41,502 bases of DNA from Synechococcales cyanobacterium M55_K2018_004 (lineage in GTDB: Bacteria > Cyanobacteriota > Cyanobacteriia > Elainellales > Elainellaceae). The stretch is taken from NCBI GenBank assembly GCA_015295905.1, contig DVEB01000333.1:1-41502 (forward strand), in the 5' to 3' direction. The first letter of the stretch is position 1. Every line of letters starts with the position of its first letter. The position numbers were made by a program, and so were the translations under genes. Positions 11,151-41,168 of the stretch are shown here, piece after piece. The notes beneath the pieces were generated by a model, which worked only from the letters and a program-made list of their open reading frames with translations, made no database searches and was not told the DNA's origin.

Positions 11151-11545
11151 CTTCTCTGCAAACTTTAATTGTTTTCACTGATCCCCGTTGATTTAGCCCT
11201 GTAAAGAATCATCGCAGAGCGATCGCCAGTGCTGCGGCAATTCCTATGATTTCCCTATAGGCTTTCAGTCGTTTCGATCGCCCTCACTTGGTGTACGGAC
11301 TGCAAAGCTTGTCTCCAGCGATTTGGGGGTGGTTATGCATCCATGTTCAAACCTGAGCTACGCTATTCAGACTTTGCCAGAAGGGGCGACTGATGTTTTT
11401 TGCGTCACGCTCAACCCGTTTTCTGAACTTAACCTTGAAGACAGCAGTGAAGAACGGTTAGAACTCCGCTTTGTTTCGGTAGGCCGTGTTTTGACCGAGT
11501 AACTTGATTGAGTAACTTGACCGAGGGATTTTTATTAGCGTGTAT
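11151..11545. other. Non-coding 3' region of murG
   Basis: 395 bp without a recognisable gene or RNA. The end (11491-11528) carries three imperfect 13-bp tandem units based on TTGACCGAGTAAC, directly before the double-hairpin element. Confidence 0.55.
11491..11528. repeat. Imperfect tandem repeat, about 3 x 13 bp
   Basis: TTGACCGAGTAAC, TTGATTGAGTAAC, TTGACCGAGGGA in a row. Same 13-bp period as the repeats at 1185, 6230 and 24828. Confidence 0.8.
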
Positions 11546-11670
11546 TAACGTGAATTCGGGATCAGTTAAAACCCTTACTTTTCTGTGCGCGACGCGCACA
11601 GAAAAGTAAGGGTTTTGGGGCACCGCGCTAGGCGCGGTGCCCCAAAACCCGCTTAACCAGAACAGATATT
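11546..11670 (+). repeat. Double-hairpin element, copy C
   Basis: Between convergent murG and prmA. Left terminus TAACGTGAATTCGGGATCAG. Hairpin 1: perfect 24-bp arms 11568-11591 and 11593-11616 around one A. Hairpin 2: perfect 19-bp arms 11610-11628 and 11632-11650. The two stems share GGGTTTT. The right terminus is diverged. The stem 1 sequence differs from the other copies (CTTACTTTTCTG) on both arms. Confidence 0.9.
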
Positions 11671-11772
11671 TTATTACATCTACCCAATTGCTGAGGCCAG
11701 CGTCCAAACGCAACTTTGGTGTAGGAGTGCGTCCCCACACGCCGCGTCAGCAGCCCTGCCAGCGCAGTGAAT

Positions 11773-15014: not shown

Positions 15015-16181
15015 CTAAACGTTAGATAAAGTGGCCTCTAGGCCCAAGCGATGGAGAACTTGCTTCAGCACCGTTGCAGTCCAGTCTACATCGGCTGCTG
15101 TGGTATGGCGGCCTAGTGTCAGGCGAATCCCCCCTTTGGCCAACCGCTCACCCAGGCCCATTGCCAGCAGCACTGGACTGGGGGAGGGTTTGCCACTGTT
15201 GCAGGCAGCCCCTGCACTAATGGCAATCCCAGCTAAATTCATATCTCTGACCAGCGTCCTACCGCTGAGCCGCTCACCGTCAGAACAGCGTAGACAAAAG
15301 CTGACGTGATGGGGCAGTCGGTGTAGGCGATCGCCTGTGGGAATGAGGACGTCTACATCTGCAAGCTGGTCAAACAGGCGATCGCGCAGGGCCATCAGGC
15401 GGGGGGTTTCCGTCGCCATTTCCTGGGCAGCCAGTTCTGCGGCGATGCCAAAACCAGCGATCGCTGGCACAGCTTGCGTCCCCGATCGCAGGCGAAACTC
15501 CTGACCACCGCCCCGCAGCAGAGGCGCTAGTTCTACTCCCGATCGCACGTAGAGCGCACCTGCTCCCTGTGGTCCATAAATTTTGTGACTGGAGAGGGAG
15601 AGCAGGTCAACGGGAAGAGACTGCACGTTGATGGGTAAACGCCCTGCCACCTGCACTGCGTCAGTATGGAACAGTGCCCCATGGTTGCGAGTGATCTGCC
15701 CCAACAGTTCGATTGGTTGCAGGGTCCCCACCTCACTCTGCCCATAGATAACAGACACCAACACTGTATTGGGACGCAAAGCCGCCACTAAGGCTTGCGG
15801 CTCAACCCGGCCTTGGGGATTGACCGGCAGGCGAGTCACTTCCCATCCGGCTTGCTCGAGCGATCGCAGAGGTTCCGCAATAGCGGAATGCTCCACGCTG
15901 GAAGTAATCATGTGCTGTGGCACAGAAAATTGCTGGGCAACCCCAAAAATCGCCAGGTTGTCGGCCTCCGTTCCCCCGGAGGTGAAAATCATATTGTGTG
16001 GCTCCGCCCCGATCAGGTCAGCGACTTGCAGACGAGCCTGCTCGACCACCACGGCGGCCCGTTCGCCCCAGAAGTGCAGGCTCGATGGGTTGCCCCATTG
16101 CTCAGTCATCACCTGCTGCATTAGGGCGATCGCCTCTGGGCGGGGAGGCGTCGTAGCGCTGTAATCCAGATAAATCTGCAT
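15015..16181 (-). CDS. Cysteine desulfurase (NifS/IscS family)
   Basis: A 388-residue PLP enzyme that takes sulfur from cysteine as an enzyme-bound persulfide for Fe-S clusters or tRNA thiolation. Lys200 in LSSHKIYGPQGAG binds PLP, His98 is in SSVEHSA, and the persulfide Cys327 is in ISAGAACNSGKPSPS. The extended Cys loop indicates group I (NifS/IscS) rather than SufS. Fits IscS or one of the cyanobacterial NifS homologues; no isc or nif partners are nearby, so I give no symbol. ATG at 16181. A small basic ORF ends 18 nt upstream. Confidence 0.93.
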   Translation of the reverse strand: MQIYLDYSATTPPRPEAIALMQQVMTEQWGNPSSLHFWGERAAVVVEQARLQVADLIGAEPHNMIFTSGGTEADNLAIFGVAQQFSVPQHMITSSVEHSAIAEPLRSLEQAGWEVTRLPVNPQGRVEPQALVAALRPNTVLVSVIYGQSEVGTLQPIELLGQITRNHGALFHTDAVQVAGRLPINVQSLPVDLLSLSSHKIYGPQGAGALYVRSGVELAPLLRGGGQEFRLRSGTQAVPAIAGFGIAAELAAQEMATETPRLMALRDRLFDQLADVDVLIPTGDRLHRLPHHVSFCLRCSDGERLSGRTLVRDMNLAGIAISAGAACNSGKPSPSPVLLAMGLGERLAKGGIRLTLGRHTTAADVDWTATVLKQVLHRLGLEATLSNV

Positions 16182-16488: not shown

Positions 16489-19400
16489 GTGAAGCCCCCA
16501 ACTATGATCCAGCCATCTACCCGCCCACCCACTCCTGAAGAAGACGGCAATGTCACAGGCTTACGGTTGGCAGATATCCTCGGCCTCCCCCAGCCGTTGC
16601 AAACCCTAATGAACTGGATGTTGCGACGCAAAACCGTGACCGTTGCTGAGGCCGCTGCCCATTGCAATCAGAGCGAGTCTGAAATGGAAGCAATGCTCCA
16701 GCAATTGGTGGAGCGGCACTTCGTAAAGCAGGTGACGCTGGATGGGGCTGTTCGCTACGAGGTGCGGCTGGCACACAAATCAAACCGCCGGATGCCGAAG
16801 GACATCTGGAAGGTGCTCAACCTCCAGAATGAGGCGGCCAATGTCTTTATTTCCTACTCTCGCCGCAACAAGGAATTTGTGCGATCGCTTGCCTTCTCAT
16901 TGCAGAAGCGGGGACGGGAAGTGTGGGTCGATTGGGAGAGCATTCCCTTCGGCACCGACTGGTGGGAAGAGATCAAACAGGGCATCGAGCTAGCCGATTG
17001 CTTTATTTTCGTCATCAGCACTGCCTCAGTTAGCTCGGAGGTCTGTGCCCGTGAACTGGCCCACGCGCTGGCAAACCAGAAACGTATCCTACCCGTGGTG
17101 TATGAGGAAGTTCCTCCCCCGCAGGTGCCGCCGGAACTCAGCAAACTCAACTGGGTCTTTCTTCGCAGGCAAGATGACTTTGACCAGGGGTTTCGCAGCC
17201 TAATCCATGCACTGGACACCGACCTTGCCTACGTGCGGAACCACACTCGTTTGCTGGTGCGTGCCAACGAATGGAAGAATCAGCACGGTGACACTAGTTT
17301 GCTCCTGCGTGGCCGTGAACTGGCAGAAGCCCGCCGCTGGCTGAGCGAAGGGGAAGCCAAAGAACCGCGGCCCCACCAAGTTCAGAAGGAGTACATCTGG
17401 TCATCCTACAATGCAGAACTGGCAGCACAACAGGCCGAGTTGGACCAGCAGCGGCAGGGCATCCGGCGGCAACGGATCTGGCTGGGGCTGGTGGCAGCAG
17501 CGTCTAGTCTGGCGGTGGCGTTTGGCATTGGCTCCTATGTGCAATACCGTAGAGCAGTCGAGAGTCGAGCGATCGCTGAAGATTTGCGTGTCCTGGCAGA
17601 ACGAGAACGCCTGGGTGCTTTAACGGAAACGGCAGCAGCTTTGTTTCAGTCGGGGCAAATCTTTGAGTCCCTGCTCAAGAGTGTGAAGGCGGGGGTTGGC
17701 TTGCAGCAAGCAGCCGGGGCCAACGATGTCCCCGAACTGAGGGCAAGGGTGATCACGGCTCTACAGCAATCGATCTTCTGGGTGCGAGAGCGCAACCAAC
17801 TGGAGGACCACACGGGCATTGTCTGGGACACGGCCTTCAGCCCCGATGGCGTCAAGATCGCCTCTGCCAGCGCGGATGGCAGTGCCAAAATTTGGGGCAC
17901 CGATGGCACCCTGCTGACCACAGTGCGCGTCCCCAATGCCCAGGTACAGGGGGTAGTTTTCTCTCCAGACAGCCGTATTTTCGCCACGGCTGCAACGGAT
18001 GGCACAATTCGCCTATGGAACCTGGGTGGGACGGCCATTCGCACCATCCAACACCCAAGCGGCCCCGTCTATGCGATCGCCATTTCACCCGACGGTAGCA
18101 CCCTGGCCGCTGCCTACGAAGATGGTGCCGTTCGCCTGTGGCGGCGGGATGGCACCCTAGTCAGCACGCTGGATCGCCACATTGCCGCCGTGCGCGATGT
18201 CGTCTTTAGCCCCGATGGTGAACTGCTGGCCTCAGCCGCAGATGATGGCACGATTCGCCTCTGGCAGGCAGATGGCACATTTCTCAAAACCTTGCGAGGA
18301 CACACCGCCAAGGTGGCCAGTGTGCAGTTTAGCCCCGACGGGCAGTTTCTCGTCTCCGCTAGTTCCGACTATACGGTTCGCTTGTGGCAGCGGGATGGCA
18401 CTGCTGTTCGTATCATCAAAGCCCACGATTACGCAGTCTACGACGCCAGGTTTAGCCCTGATGGGCAGGTGATTGCCTCGGCAGGGTTGGACAAAACAAT
18501 TCGGTTGTGGCGACCGGATGGGACTCTGCTCAGCAGCTTAGAAGGGCACACTTCCCAAGTTCGTAGCCTGAGCTTCAGCCCTAATGGGCAACGGCTGGCC
18601 TCTGGTAGTGGCGATCGCACCATCAAACTCTGGCAATTGCACCGTCCCCTCGTTGAAACCTTACAGCAGCACCGTGCCCAGGTCTACGATGTAAGGTTCT
18701 CTGCCGATGGACAGACCGTGGCGACAGCCAGTGCCGACTTTGAGGTCAAACTCTGGCGGCGAGACGGCACCCCCCTGGCCGCCCGGCGCGGACACACTGC
18801 CCCGGTCTGGGCTGTCGCCTTTAGTCCTGATGGAAAACAGATCGCCGCTGCCAGTTCTGACCGCACGATTAAACTTTGGGACCACCATGGCAATTTATTG
18901 AACACGCTAGTGGGCCATGGTGCCCCGGTCAAGGATGTTGCCTTCAGCCCGGATGGCAAGCTGATCGCCTCTGCCAGCGAAGACCGCACAGTTAAGTTGT
19001 GGCAACGAGACGGGAGGCTACTCCACACCCTCCCTGGTCACGCTCAGGGTGTCCTCAGTGTCACCTTTAGCCCCAATAGTCAGACGCTGGTGAGTACTAG
19101 TTGGGACAATAGCGCCATGCTCTGGGATGTGCAAGGGCATTTGCTGCACACCTTGCAGGGGCATAGCGGTTGGGTCTACAGTGCGGCCTTTAGCCCCGAT
19201 GGTCAAACCATTGCCACGGCTAGCTTCGACAACACCGTGCGGCTCTGGCAACCCGATGGAACCTTGCTGCAAATTCTGGAGGGGCACCACGATGGCGTGG
19301 TTGCTGTGCGCTTCAGCACCCAGGGCAATATGATTGCCACAGGCAGCTTTGACCACACCATCAAGCTGTGGCGCCCCGATGGCAGACTGATTACGACACT

Positions 19401-19635
19401 GCGGGGACACTCCGGACGGGTCAACGCCGTTGAGTTTAGCCAGGATGGACACCTGCTGGCCACCGCCAGCGACGATCGCACAGTTCTGCTCTGGCACCTG
19501 GATCAGATGGATGACCTTGATCATCTGCTGACCCTGGGCTGTGACTGGCTACAGGACTATCTCAAGACCAACCGCCCCCTGCCACAGGGCGATCGCTCCC
19601 TCTGTCAGGACATTCCTCCCCCAGCAACACCCTAA
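16489..19635 (+). CDS. wHTH-TIR-TM-WD40 repeat protein
   Basis: A 1048-residue multidomain protein. Residues ~24-110 look like a winged helix; ~116-245 are a TIR domain (box 1 NVFISYSRRNKEFV, then WVDWESIPFGTDWWEEI, and Glu189 in SEVCAREL at the position of the catalytic Glu of NAD-cleaving TIRs). A charged segment leads to a membrane helix (331-352). From 441 to 1014 there are 14 WD40 repeats, each exactly 41 residues, ending in (I/V)(K/R)LW: enough for two seven-bladed propellers. TIR plus propeller architecture is typical of cyanobacterial signalling or cell-suicide proteins; the function is unproven. GTG start at 16489, ATG at 16504 equally possible. The element E starts 2 nt after the stop. 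Confidence 0.9.
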   Translation: MKPPTMIQPSTRPPTPEEDGNVTGLRLADILGLPQPLQTLMNWMLRRKTVTVAEAAAHCNQSESEMEAMLQQLVERHFVKQVTLDGAVRYEVRLAHKSNRRMPKDIWKVLNLQNEAANVFISYSRRNKEFVRSLAFSLQKRGREVWVDWESIPFGTDWWEEIKQGIELADCFIFVISTASVSSEVCARELAHALANQKRILPVVYEEVPPPQVPPELSKLNWVFLRRQDDFDQGFRSLIHALDTDLAYVRNHTRLLVRANEWKNQHGDTSLLLRGRELAEARRWLSEGEAKEPRPHQVQKEYIWSSYNAELAAQQAELDQQRQGIRRQRIWLGLVAAASSLAVAFGIGSYVQYRRAVESRAIAEDLRVLAERERLGALTETAAALFQSGQIFESLLKSVKAGVGLQQAAGANDVPELRARVITALQQSIFWVRERNQLEDHTGIVWDTAFSPDGVKIASASADGSAKIWGTDGTLLTTVRVPNAQVQGVVFSPDSRIFATAATDGTIRLWNLGGTAIRTIQHPSGPVYAIAISPDGSTLAAAYEDGAVRLWRRDGTLVSTLDRHIAAVRDVVFSPDGELLASAADDGTIRLWQADGTFLKTLRGHTAKVASVQFSPDGQFLVSASSDYTVRLWQRDGTAVRIIKAHDYAVYDARFSPDGQVIASAGLDKTIRLWRPDGTLLSSLEGHTSQVRSLSFSPNGQRLASGSGDRTIKLWQLHRPLVETLQQHRAQVYDVRFSADGQTVATASADFEVKLWRRDGTPLAARRGHTAPVWAVAFSPDGKQIAAASSDRTIKLWDHHGNLLNTLVGHGAPVKDVAFSPDGKLIASASEDRTVKLWQRDGRLLHTLPGHAQGVLSVTFSPNSQTLVSTSWDNSAMLWDVQGHLLHTLQGHSGWVYSAAFSPDGQTIATASFDNTVRLWQPDGTLLQILEGHHDGVVAVRFSTQGNMIATGSFDHTIKLWRPDGRLITTLRGHSGRVNAVEFSQDGHLLATASDDRTVLLWHLDQMDDLDHLLTLGCDWLQDYLKTNRPLPQGDRSLCQDIPPPATP

Positions 19636-19637
19636 AC

Positions 19638-19772
19638 AACGTCAGTTCGGATTAAGAGGGTTTTGGGGCACCGCGCCTGGCGCGGTGCCCCAAAACCCTT
19701 GCTGTTCTGTGCGCGGCGCGCACAGAACAGCAAGGGTTTCAGCGTGTAGCGCCATACCCCGAATTCACATTA
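19638..19772 (-). repeat. Double-hairpin element, copy E
   Basis: Inverted copy that fills the whole gap between the convergent TIR-WD40 and LOG genes. Right terminus AACGTCAGTTCGGATTAAG, hairpin 2 with perfect 20-bp arms (19658-19677, 19679-19698), hairpin 1 with perfect 20-bp arms (19696-19715, 19717-19736), and left terminus GAATTCACATTA. The TAA stop of the LOG gene (19770-19772) is inside the terminus. Between hairpin 1 and the left terminus the linker is replaced by AGCGTGTAGCGCCATA. Confidence 0.92.
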
Positions 19773-20837
19773 CTTATGCTCAGGATGGGCTGACGCTGGT
19801 GTGACAGTGCCCATGGTGTTAATCAGCCGAATCATTTTGTAGAGCCGTCCTAAGTCTCGTTGGTTAAACTCCAGCACCAACCGGGGCAGGTCAGAAATAT
19901 CGGGTTCATTCTCCTGCGGCAGAGCACGGCTCTTTTCAATGCGACCTTTGACGAGAATGTCGCTGAATTCTTCGTTCAAAAGCGCGACTTCTGCGTCGGA
20001 TAACTCGGAGTTGAGCCGAATTACCAGTTGGCTGCCTACATAGCGGGTGGAATGAAACACTCGATAGAAGCTAGCGATCGCCTCGCAGGCCACATCAATC
20101 CGGTCAGTAATGGTATAGATATTCAGGTCATCAGGACTGATCAGCCGTGCCTTCAGCAGATGGTCGAGGATGTATTTTTCCCAGCTTTGCCAGTAATCAC
20201 TCCCAGGAGGTTCAACCAAAACGAGGGGCATTACTTCTGCCTTGCCTGTCTGCATCAAGGTCAAACACTCGAAGGCTTCGTCTAAGGTGCCAAAGCCACC
20301 AGGAAACAGCGCCAAGGCGTCACTTTCACGCAGGAAGAACAATTTGCGAGTAAAGAAATATTTGAAGCGAATTAATTTGCGATCGCCCTCAATAAATGGG
20401 TTTGCCCCCTGCTCGAACGGCAACTGAATGTTGAGACCAAAAGACTTCTCAACCCCTGCGCCTTCGTTGCCGGCCTGCATAATACCGCCGCCCGCTCCGG
20501 TCATCACCATAAACCCCTGAGCGGTGACACAGCGAGCAAAGTCCACTGCCATGCGATACTCTGGGCTTTCGGGAGAAATGCGGGCAGACCCAAAAATCGA
20601 AATTTTGCGAATGTGACGATAGGGGTAGAAGATTTGAAAGGCTCGTCCTATATCTTGCAGAGAGTAGTTAAGAATCTTCCAGTCTAATCGGTCGGCCTCT
20701 CCTTGCGCCAATTGCACAATTGTTGCTAGAGCCTGTTGGATCAGTTCCCCGTGTTTCATGCGAGGCACATGATCCAGCAAGTCATTTACCTCGCTTCTGA
20801 GCAATTCCAGCGCCGGAAAAGAGGGGTCTACTACCAT
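19770..20837 (-). CDS. LOG-family Rossmann-fold protein
   Basis: A 355-residue protein with a central LOG (lysine decarboxylase-like) domain. The nucleotide-binding signatures are GAGGGIMQAGNEGA and PGGFGTLDEAFE (the PGGxGTxxE motif). True LOG enzymes are phosphoribohydrolases that release cytokinin bases from their monophosphates and are about 180-220 residues; here ~90-residue flanks on each side mark the longer TIGR00730-like cyanobacterial group, whose substrate is not settled. ATG at 20837. The stop codon lies in the end of element E, so the last residues (EHK) abut the repeat. Confidence 0.88.
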   Translation of the reverse strand: MVVDPSFPALELLRSEVNDLLDHVPRMKHGELIQQALATIVQLAQGEADRLDWKILNYSLQDIGRAFQIFYPYRHIRKISIFGSARISPESPEYRMAVDFARCVTAQGFMVMTGAGGGIMQAGNEGAGVEKSFGLNIQLPFEQGANPFIEGDRKLIRFKYFFTRKLFFLRESDALALFPGGFGTLDEAFECLTLMQTGKAEVMPLVLVEPPGSDYWQSWEKYILDHLLKARLISPDDLNIYTITDRIDVACEAIASFYRVFHSTRYVGSQLVIRLNSELSDAEVALLNEEFSDILVKGRIEKSRALPQENEPDISDLPRLVLEFNQRDLGRLYKMIRLINTMGTVTPASAHPEHK

Positions 20838-38486: not shown

Positions 38487-41168
38487 TCAGGATGCGTGGA
38501 AGGCTTGGTAGAACGCTGGATAAGGTAGCGCCTCAGCACACTTCATCATCAGTTGATAGGCTTCATCTGTGCGGAAGGGATGGCGGAGCAGCCGCATCAG
38601 TGCTCGAATCACTGTCTCATTGCCCGGATCGAGCGTGCCCAGGGTCTCGGCGGCCCTCCTACGGGTGTTTTGATCCTGAGTGGATTCGAGTAGCCGCATC
38701 AGTGCCCTAATCGCCGTCTCATTACCCGGATCGAAGGTGCCCAGGTTCTCGGCGGCAATCAAATAGGTGTACTCCTCCTGCGGGGTTTCCAGCAACCGTA
38801 CCAGTTCCCGAATCACGCGTTGAGAATCAGTGTTGCTGAAGGCGGTTTCAGCCCAGCCTGATCTGACTCTTCCTTTAGGGATGGAAAAAGTAGCCCTGAC
38901 TCGTTTCAGCAAATTGGAAGCGAAAAACCTCCACTGCATCAATTGATGAACAATCGCATCCGCTTGGGTGCAATCTTTGAACTCAGCAATCCCCGCTGCG
39001 GCCAGGAGAAAGGCGCGATCGCTATAAAACCCCTTACACCCATCCTGAAACTTGACCAATGAGCGAATCAACTGCTCTTTCTTCCCCTTCTCAACATCCG
39101 ATCGCCCTAACCATAGCAAAATAACTTCTCTCCACTGCGGTTCAAAAACACGGTATTGTTCACCTGGCACAGGCTGATTCTTGTGATTACGGGGCAGAAA
39201 AAAGTCCCAATCATCGATCGCTAACGCAGCAAAATATTCCTGAAATGATGGATGGAAGAATGCATAGACATTGTGCAATGGATTCTCTGCTTCCATACCC
39301 ACTCGATTGAGCCAGCCAAGCTTTAGCACCAGATCAAATACATCGAATCCTAAGTTTACTGGTTGAGACTCCACCAGTTCTTGACAGACCAGATTGTGCG
39401 GCAAAATTGACTTAAATCCTCGATCGATCGCTTGCTTTGCCAGTCGTCCTAATGCCTTGTTTAAGATGCTTTGCTGTTTTGGAGTCAGCGCAATACCTTT
39501 AGTCTGCTCCGAGATCAGGTAAAGGCTCTCTACAAACTGCTGATAGAGCATTGCCTTTGTCTCTGGCAAGTTGCCCTGCTTTTCTTGCCAGTTAAAACAC
39601 AGGAGGCCTAGGCGTAGTGGGTTGCGGGCTAAATTCTTAATCCGTTCTTTTCCCAGTTCATCCAAAGCCATCCGGAGCGAATCACCCCACTCAAGATGGT
39701 CGATAGCCGTAAACCACTTCTCAATAAATTGCTTGACCTGATCTGGTTGCGGCCCCTCTCCATAGCTGAAATCCAGCATTTTGTAGGTGTCAAACTCCAA
39801 CGGGGCGCTACCTGCCGCATCCCAAAGATTCACCCGACAGCTCAAGACTACCCTCGATCCAACAAACAACAGATCTTTGAGTTCTTCAGTCAACCGTCCC
39901 AGCGGATTCGCCCCCCGCATCTCATCTGCCCCATCCAGAAGCAGCCAGATCTTGCCGTTTTTGAGGCGTTGCTCTAGATCGTTTTCCCACTGCGAGGAAT
40001 ACTGCTTTAACCGGGCAGTAGCTGCTGGCAACCAAATATCAAACACATACTCTCGTAATGACTTTTCTCCCAGCGCCTCTAATGAAATCCAGATGGGTAA
40101 ATCTTCCGTTGCATTTAAAACCCAATCCGCGATCTTTAACAACTGCACCGTCTTCCCTGCGCCAGCTTCCCCAATAATTGCGAGGCGTTTGCCCTGACTT
40201 TTAGGACTTTGCCGTTGAGCCAGGACTCTCCGGAAGAAATCATCGTAGGAAATCGGGGTGATGGTTTCCTGTCTCTCTCTTTGATTAGCAGGTATCCTGC
40301 TGTTCACAGATGCTTCCTGGGACAGATCAATTTGCTCCGGACGGTACACTTGCGATCCGGCTTCTGGAGAAACATCTTTGGGGGCAATCGGCTTCCGTTG
40401 ACGTTCCAACAATCCCAGAGGTACGTGAATTTCATCCAAGTCTAATGGTTTGCCCAAAATGTCCGCAAATAAGTTTGTCACTGGACTCCGGCGGACTTTT
40501 ATCCAGTTCCGGCAAGCTTCTCGCCAGATTTCTTCCGTTGGAACCTTGAGTGACTTCACCCAGCGGTCGTCCTGCTGATGAAATTGCTGTTGGAGTTCTT
40601 TAATCTGGGGAAACTGCTCCAGGATTACTTGGGTTGGAATAGCCCCTCCTCCCAAATCAGTAGTGCGATCGCGCGTGAATTTGACGATGCCACACACCTT
40701 GCCCGTTGCCCAATTCAGCAAGGCAGATCCACTGATGCCCGGACGAATCTGTCCTGACTTGAACAGGATAAGCTCTTTCCCTTGCTCAAAAGCAGTTCCT
40801 TCACAGTCGCTGGTGACGGATGCCCCATTCGGAAATTGATCGGAATAGCCAAATGTATAAAACCTGTCAAATGGTTCAAAGTCTGGAGCTAGATACACAC
40901 AGGGAAAATTGACTGTGGGCGACGGACTAAAACGCAACAGCGCCAGATCGTAATCTGGGATCAATTGAACCAGCGTTGTGTCAGGGAAACTGATCTGCTC
41001 CTGACTGCTCACCTGCACCTTATCACCCAGATTCATGCCTTTAACTACATGGGCACAGGTTAAAATTAGCCCCGGAGCGATGAAGAATCCACTTCCCCAG
41101 CCTACCTTATCGGGGACTTTCAATTTCACCGTGCAACGCTGCAATAGCTCATCAAGGCGCTGATCCAT
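38487..41168 (-). CDS. Trypsin-NACHT-HEAT STAND protein
   Basis: An 893-residue fusion. Residues 1-195 are a trypsin-like serine protease with an intact triad by motif: His40 (TCAHVV), Asp74 (DYDLALLRF) and Ser146 (GISGSAL). A linker leads to a NACHT-type STAND NTPase: Walker A GEAGAGKT (333-340), Walker B LLLDGADE (409-416), and SRVVLSCRVNLWD. A helical region follows, then C-terminal HEAT-like repeats with 34-residue period (LLETPQ..., LGTFDPGNETAIRALMRLL). In known STAND immune proteins the C-terminal repeats sense, NTP binding drives assembly, and the N-terminal domain acts; here the effector would be a protease. The Trypco1 gene lies 17 nt upstream. Targets and triggers unknown. Confidence 0.92.
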   Translation of the reverse strand: MDQRLDELLQRCTVKLKVPDKVGWGSGFFIAPGLILTCAHVVKGMNLGDKVQVSSQEQISFPDTTLVQLIPDYDLALLRFSPSPTVNFPCVYLAPDFEPFDRFYTFGYSDQFPNGASVTSDCEGTAFEQGKELILFKSGQIRPGISGSALLNWATGKVCGIVKFTRDRTTDLGGGAIPTQVILEQFPQIKELQQQFHQQDDRWVKSLKVPTEEIWREACRNWIKVRRSPVTNLFADILGKPLDLDEIHVPLGLLERQRKPIAPKDVSPEAGSQVYRPEQIDLSQEASVNSRIPANQRERQETITPISYDDFFRRVLAQRQSPKSQGKRLAIIGEAGAGKTVQLLKIADWVLNATEDLPIWISLEALGEKSLREYVFDIWLPAATARLKQYSSQWENDLEQRLKNGKIWLLLDGADEMRGANPLGRLTEELKDLLFVGSRVVLSCRVNLWDAAGSAPLEFDTYKMLDFSYGEGPQPDQVKQFIEKWFTAIDHLEWGDSLRMALDELGKERIKNLARNPLRLGLLCFNWQEKQGNLPETKAMLYQQFVESLYLISEQTKGIALTPKQQSILNKALGRLAKQAIDRGFKSILPHNLVCQELVESQPVNLGFDVFDLVLKLGWLNRVGMEAENPLHNVYAFFHPSFQEYFAALAIDDWDFFLPRNHKNQPVPGEQYRVFEPQWREVILLWLGRSDVEKGKKEQLIRSLVKFQDGCKGFYSDRAFLLAAAGIAEFKDCTQADAIVHQLMQWRFFASNLLKRVRATFSIPKGRVRSGWAETAFSNTDSQRVIRELVRLLETPQEEYTYLIAAENLGTFDPGNETAIRALMRLLESTQDQNTRRRAAETLGTLDPGNETVIRALMRLLRHPFRTDEAYQLMMKCAEALPYPAFYQAFHAS

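Follow-up and report, generated by a model that had tools for sequence, protein, structure and literature searches.

The bacterial TIR sensors described so far are mostly cytosolic, and the TIR immune sensors that have been studied mostly respond to intracellular signals. Nucleotide-centric conflict systems with SLOG and SLATT proteins were reportedly predicted by Burroughs, Aravind and colleagues in 2015. In the Thoeris system, the TIR protein ThsB makes a nucleotide from NAD+ that is read by a dedicated SLOG or macro protein, ThsA (SIR2-SLOG or TM-macro), and the readers cause NAD+ loss or membrane damage; the TM-macro ThsA binds ADP-ribose (PMC11204291). Passages of a later paper present SLATT as a predicted nucleotide-responsive, pore-forming effector and TIR as a nucleotide generator (Kaur et al., 2020; PMC7159879), two roles that would recur in the proteins considered here. 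In animals, Toll-like receptors join outside repeats, a single transmembrane helix and a cytosolic TIR domain, and the channel TRPM2 binds ADP-ribose (ADPR); the R302A/R358A exchange affects this binding and leaves the channel inactive (PMC8949931). Finally, 14 WD40 repeats folded into two seven-bladed propellers are known from WRAP (Npun_R6612) of Nostoc punctiforme (PDB 2ymu; PMC6805158).

The gene analyzed here lies in a contig of the cyanobacterium M55_K2018_004 (DVEB01000333.1), the whole 41,502 nucleotides of which form the window. Its product is best read as a receptor for TIR-nucleotide-effector signalling with Thoeris-like logic and a Toll-like-receptor topology reached independently. 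It differs from Thoeris in carrying the TIR domain within a membrane receptor with a WD40 sensor, the candidate reader being an LSDAT protein with a separate SLATT effector. It differs from Toll-like receptors by the N-terminal position of the TIR domain (a reverse order), by WD40 repeats instead of LRRs and by a putatively enzymatic TIR, so that the shared topology, itself predicted, would be convergent and not homologous in architecture. Each part is known by itself. The literature searched contained no account of this receptor, and the joint occurrence of an enzymatic TIR, an outward double propeller and an LSDAT-SLATT pair appears to be undescribed there. The passages of PMC7159879 mentioned above connect no LSDAT-SLATT pair with a TIR receptor that spans the membrane and bears its propellers outside.

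Domain order and conservation of the receptor

The chain runs from a disordered start through a winged-helix-like domain, TIR, helices, a transmembrane helix and 14 WD40 repeats to a tail with two cysteines. The features of the gene and its two neighbours are as follows.

15015 to 16181, minus strand: cysteine desulfurase-like gene (class V aminotransferase), divergent from the receptor gene; position marker
16489 to 19635, plus strand: whole receptor gene, a single ORF of 1048 aa with a GTG start; alternative ATG at 16504
16546 to 16824, plus strand: winged-helix-like domain, residues 20-112
16825 to 17208, plus strand: TIR domain, residues 113-240 (TIR_2, E 7e-31)
17053 to 17055, plus strand: codon of E189, predicted catalytic glutamate (alignment of orthologues and SPARTA)
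17209 to 17475, plus strand: conserved helical linker, residues 241-329, common to TIR-TM-WD40 proteins without winged helix
17476 to 17544, plus strand: predicted transmembrane helix, residues 330-352 (hydropathy)
17545 to 17799, plus strand: helical stalk, residues 353-437 (AlphaFold2 model)
17800 to 18660, plus strand: first propeller, WD40 repeats 1-7, residues 438-724
18661 to 19521, plus strand: second propeller, WD40 repeats 8-14, residues 725-1011
19522 to 19632, plus strand: C-terminal helical tail of 37 residues, residues 1012-1048, holding C1018 and C1039
19540 to 19542 and 19603 to 19605, plus strand: codons of C1018 and C1039, predicted disulfide
19770 to 20837, minus strand: LOG/'lysine decarboxylase' family gene, convergent with the receptor gene; position marker

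The TIR domain is the best conserved part of the chain, with 66 of 128 positions invariant among six orthologues, and its nearest folds in a Foldseek search are the SPARTA TIR-APAZ and SARM1 NADases. Residue 189 is a glutamate in each of the 12 full-length sequences of the orthologue alignment, which were also used for the AlphaFold2 model, and by hand count in the alignment it falls on E77 of SPARTA TIR-APAZ, the residue exchanged in the E77A mutant that serves as a catalytic control (PMC10474274). The first-pass annotation had already assigned a TIR domain with a glutamate in the NADase position, and this invariance, the SPARTA alignment and the SARM1/SPARTA-like fold bear it out. The receptor TIR thus likely acts as an NADase. 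Among 58 receptors of the family, a motif check located the glutamate in 49; in the other nine the pattern gave no match of any kind. In many receptors (those of L010, L042, L183, L198 and others), the membrane helix is preceded by a tandem array of two or three TIR domains, the first of which differs from the last.

Each of the 14 WD40 repeats is exactly 41 residues long and the array extends over residues 438-1011 without a gap; Pfam WD40 matches 14 stretches (E 5e-162), and a chance origin of the array is ruled out. The uninterrupted repeats noticed at first sight are thereby established. Structure prediction, which had been proposed as a check, returned 14 four-stranded blades, mostly at pLDDT above 90, with 2ymu as the top structural match in the PDB, in agreement with the suggested two seven-bladed propellers. 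The existing crystal structure also means that a 14-blade WD40 protein is not novel as such; the blades of WRAP are nearly identical, in contrast to the diverged repeats of the receptor.

At the other end of the chain, the predicted fold H-H-H-E-E is winged-helix-like. An OmpR-type winged helix, as in ToxR/CadC, was not found; the Pfam HTH matches are weak instead (IclR 1e-3 and FeoC 4e-3, both below cut-off; also PafC/MarR). The domain is 43-56% identical among six orthologues, which makes it the least conserved globular part ahead of the propellers, and its net charge among orthologues ranges from -1 to +4. Because of this charge and the low conservation, DNA binding is not favoured. Its homologs are stand-alone cyanobacterial proteins of about 100 aa and, in the same genome, the C-terminus of a MinD/ParA-like ATPase, and the winged helix is an add-on domain. 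A link to retrons was considered, since NCBIfam NF042941 and the PADLOC RT-TIR models cover residues 17-206. Searched alone, the winged helix did not match the RT-TIR models, so that the link concerns the TIR domain only, and the receptor chain has no reverse transcriptase.

At least 12 further Leptolyngbya-like genomes encode full-length orthologues with identical domain order, and a scan of named genomes gave more full-length members (L045-L055), all cyanobacterial. Within the order, 21 of 36 genomes hold a receptor of the TIR-helix-WD40 type (E <1e-20) and five genomes beyond M55_K2018_004 hold the full winged-helix form. Proteins with TIR, helix and propellers but without the winged helix are numerous; they come from Cyanobacteria and Chloroflexi, but also from a Beggiatoa relative and other sources. 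The first impression that a chain with TIR, a DNA-binding-like domain and a transmembrane helix is unusual is not supported: TIR-helix-WD40 chains are widespread, and restriction to a small clade applies to the winged helix only.

The predicted membrane helix and the cysteines

The chain contains a single hydrophobic stretch (mean hydropathy 1.94 at residues 330-348), which is hydrophobic, if moderately, in all 12 orthologues (1.85-2.6); AlphaFold2 confidence is low over residues 331-349. The membrane helix of the first-pass annotation is thus retained as a conserved prediction. Over the whole family, the 15 residues before the helix hold on average 4.2 Lys+Arg and the 15 after it 2.2. In the receptor's own clade the flanking charges are balanced and favour neither orientation; since the charge rule fails there, the topology argument rests on the cysteines.

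C1018 and C1039 are the sole cysteines past the membrane helix and are invariant in all 12 orthologues, four of which have one additional unpaired cysteine. Among the 58 receptor proteins, the number of cysteines after the helix is even in 50, and a close terminal pair is present in 55 by hand count (the exceptions are L095, L101 and G035b_1). The pair has the context GCDWLQDYL...LC in Cyanobacteria, with other contexts and other spacings elsewhere, including Chloroflexi. In a control set composed of the WD40 proteins of related genomes and of the receptor's own genome, proteins without a transmembrane helix have 1.58 cysteines per 100 residues and those with one 0.44. A cruder second sorting of the propellers alone, which put some helix-bearing proteins into the helix-less class, gave 1.07 and 0.13 per 100.

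As the TIR enzyme needs cytosolic NAD+, one spanning helix would place the propellers outside. Together with the cysteine depletion, the conserved terminal pair and the family-wide Lys+Arg bias, this makes it probable that the propeller pair lies outside the membrane and is stabilised by a disulfide. The early proposal that the WD40 part lies across the membrane from the TIR domain thereby gains support at the level of sequence. A cysteine-poor propeller with a terminal cysteine pair behind one helix would provide a marker that separates outside-facing from cytosolic WD40 sensors in bacteria.

Three further proteins show related arrangements. The receptor's own genome encodes a 772-aa helix-TM-WD40 protein without TIR domain (L167; contig C170, 4000-7599), with a linker-like start similar to that of the receptor and a two-cysteine tail with one Cys pair; it is possibly a decoy or a co-receptor. 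On contig C179 of this genome (L173), a kinase-like protein has a transmembrane helix, WD40 repeats and just two cysteines past the helix; the cysteine signature may extend to WD40 receptors of other kinds that face outward. In Phormidium sp. FACHB-1136 (L078:5679-7169), winged helix, TIR and transmembrane helix are kept and all 14 WD40 repeats are lost, yet the protein still ends with a short two-cysteine tail.

LSDAT and SLATT partners

The partners tell more about function than the receptor domains alone. The second clade of the receptor (L048-L054) has LSDAT_prok genes ('SLOG in TRPM', E 1e-72) next to it, joined at two of these loci by DUF4231/SLATT (E down to 9e-30); the matches of receptor-adjoining genes range from 1e-64 to 1e-72 for LSDAT_prok and from 1e-27 to 1e-31 for DUF4231/SLATT. 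At order level (36 genomes), LSDAT accompanies the receptor in 19 of 21 cases and is absent from all 15 genomes without receptor; the two receptor genomes that lack it, 78% and 88% complete, both have SLATT. Genome size is unlikely to cause the co-occurrence within the order, because genomes without either gene are equally large. At genus level, 11 genera have both genes, one the receptor only, none LSDAT only and nine neither (p 3e-5, kinship ignored). In a phylum sample of 386 genomes, 24 have the receptor, 29 LSDAT and 23 both, which puts LSDAT in 23/24 receptor genomes versus 6/362 others (Fisher p 2e-30, kinship ignored). It occurs in 5 of 36 genomes with other TIR proteins only and in 1 of 326 without any TIR. 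In G271, the lone receptor genome of the phylum set without LSDAT, the receptor is followed at a distance of 2.6 kb by a SLATT gene.

Receptor and partners are linked within about 10 kb in 8 of the 23 phylum-level genomes and also in G002, G009, G010 (twice), G012, G014, G023 and G027 and in named loci including L060; three-gene runs of LSDAT, SLATT and TIR receptor occur in G027, G380 and L060. M55_K2018_004 itself has exactly one LSDAT-SLATT pair, in which the two genes are adjacent (LSDAT C323:3730-4320; SLATT C323:2790-3107, SLATT_1 E 2e-33), and this pair lies on contig C323, away from the receptor's 41.5-kb contig. As the receptor gene is not beside the pair in its own clade, the link there rests on co-occurrence. 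Six Nostoc-like genomes (L192-L197) have LSDAT without this receptor, with SLATT beside it in five, and the pair can therefore serve other inputs. In Chloroflexi relatives, neither LSDAT nor SLATT was found within 6 kb of the receptor. A 'Rosetta stone' fusion of LSDAT with a partner was not seen, the listed cyanobacterial LSDAT frames all being of 228-336 aa.

A PDB search with the own-genome LSDAT gave TRPM2 chains (E 4e-11), and the protein is homologous to the N-terminal domain of TRPM2. The arginine of its Gly-Ser/Thr-Gly-Arg motif, invariant in 11 of 11 sequences, corresponds by hand-counted alignment position to R358 of human TRPM2, which ADPR binding requires. Unlike in TRPM2, the sensor is not in one chain with the membrane part. 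SLATT is a pore-like protein with two transmembrane helices and without evident homology to the TRP channel. The SLATT proteins beside two TIR receptors (L042:2443-4221 and L183:7629-9827) have long C-terminal extensions, the former with a Peptidase_C39-like domain (E 1e-10).

The locus does not fit Thoeris: ThsB1 models match weakly (best 1e-7) and cover the TIR domain alone, and NCBIfam ThcB4 reaches 28.7 bits where the cut-off is 220. ThsA (SIR2-SLOG or TM-macro) is not beside the receptor, where a cysteine desulfurase gene and a LOG-family gene lie instead, and PADLOC gave no convincing match, ThsA included, for the LSDAT or SLATT partners. A profile search found no NTPase domain between TIR and WD40, as a STAND NTPase-WD40 protein would have.

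A proposed pathway, its rivals and the surrounding locus

An ADPR-type pathway is proposed on the basis of the TRPM2 likeness of LSDAT, the pore prediction for SLATT, the known products of TIR enzymes and the logic of Thoeris. The cytosol would hold the N-terminal part with winged helix and TIR, and helix 330-352 would cross the membrane to two seven-bladed propellers in the periplasm, closed by a C1018-C1039 disulfide. An outside ligand, be it phage, cell-surface or envelope-derived, would bind and cluster the chains, whereupon the TIR domains would assemble and cleave NAD+. An ADP-ribose-type product would be read by the LSDAT protein through its TRPM2-type SLOG domain, and LSDAT would open or assemble the two-helix membrane effector SLATT, the outcome being permeabilisation or depolarisation of the membrane, growth arrest or death. 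Domain order, catalytic glutamate, conserved helix, cysteine pattern and the association with LSDAT and SLATT, both by co-occurrence and by linkage, can be read directly from the sequences. NADase chemistry, ADP-ribose binding by LSDAT and pore formation by SLATT would follow by analogy with established knowledge; ligand, signalling direction and the first and last steps we infer. Envelope stress, suggested at the outset, is one possible ligand class among several. Taken as a whole, this single-pass receptor pathway is held tentatively, at a little less than an even chance.

The catalytic glutamate and the NADase-like fold would also suit a partner-free suicide receptor, in which TIR domains clustered by an outside or membrane signal drain NAD+ and arrest the cell as in SARM1 or SPARTA, LSDAT and SLATT co-occurring through a shared lifestyle. 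The gene of the own clade, which stands alone beside housekeeping genes, is in line with this. The near-exclusive co-occurrence and the repeated adjacency with LSDAT and SLATT across many families, together with the rarity of LSDAT in genomes that have other TIR proteins only (the 5/36 given above), speak against it and make it unlikely. A different objection concerns topology: the helix may be packed within an assembly of a cytosolic or peripheral protein, the propellers then sensing intracellular, for instance phage, components. Such a location would match most bacterial TIR sensors described so far, and the moderate hydrophobicity, the balanced flanking charges in the own clade and the low model confidence over 331-349 are compatible with it. 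As cysteine depletion and the conserved terminal pair are specific to helix-bearing propeller proteins and the wider family shows a Lys/Arg bias, we give it a small chance of being right.

A membrane-anchored regulator of the ToxR/CadC kind, whose propellers sense and whose winged helix binds a promoter, perhaps in the divergent region shared with the cysteine desulfurase gene, would account for the winged-helix-like N-terminus and for the conservation of that divergent gene in four loci. It would leave the TIR domain, the best conserved part, a mere oligomerisation role; moreover, most receptors lack the winged helix, its Pfam matches are weak and of non-OmpR/ToxR type, its net charge is -1 to +4 and a second clade has no desulfurase neighbour. 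This alternative appears quite improbable.

If the receptor pathway to LSDAT and SLATT is real, a signal from outside would be able to set off an NAD+-based alarm in bacteria, in parallel to the Toll-like receptors of animals, and LSDAT with SLATT would be a simple, testable version of the route from ADP-ribose to the TRPM2 channel. That Cyanobacteria, and perhaps Chloroflexi, possess a Toll-like receptor counterpart feeding a split TRPM2-like pathway from LSDAT to SLATT is conceivable but rather doubtful.

The genes next to the receptor are position markers, and the desulfurase is not assigned to the mechanism. The same desulfurase neighbour is kept in three to four orthologous loci (it is absent in the second clade) and the LOG-family gene in two, including Leptolyngbya FACHB-8, for which reason a mobile defence island is rejected for the own clade; given the fixed chromosomal position beside the desulfurase gene, the locus looks like a resident pathway. 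Just behind the receptor gene, positions 19655-19745 hold two long hairpin-like palindromes (GGGGCACCGCGCC... and CTTGCTGTTCTGTGCGCGG...), and a resembling element seems to be present near 11429-11740; they are perhaps a dispersed palindromic repeat. Farther along the window, 38487-41168 on the minus strand encodes an 893-aa protein with a trypsin-like start (GWGSGFFIAPGLILTCAHVV), possibly another conflict-type effector.
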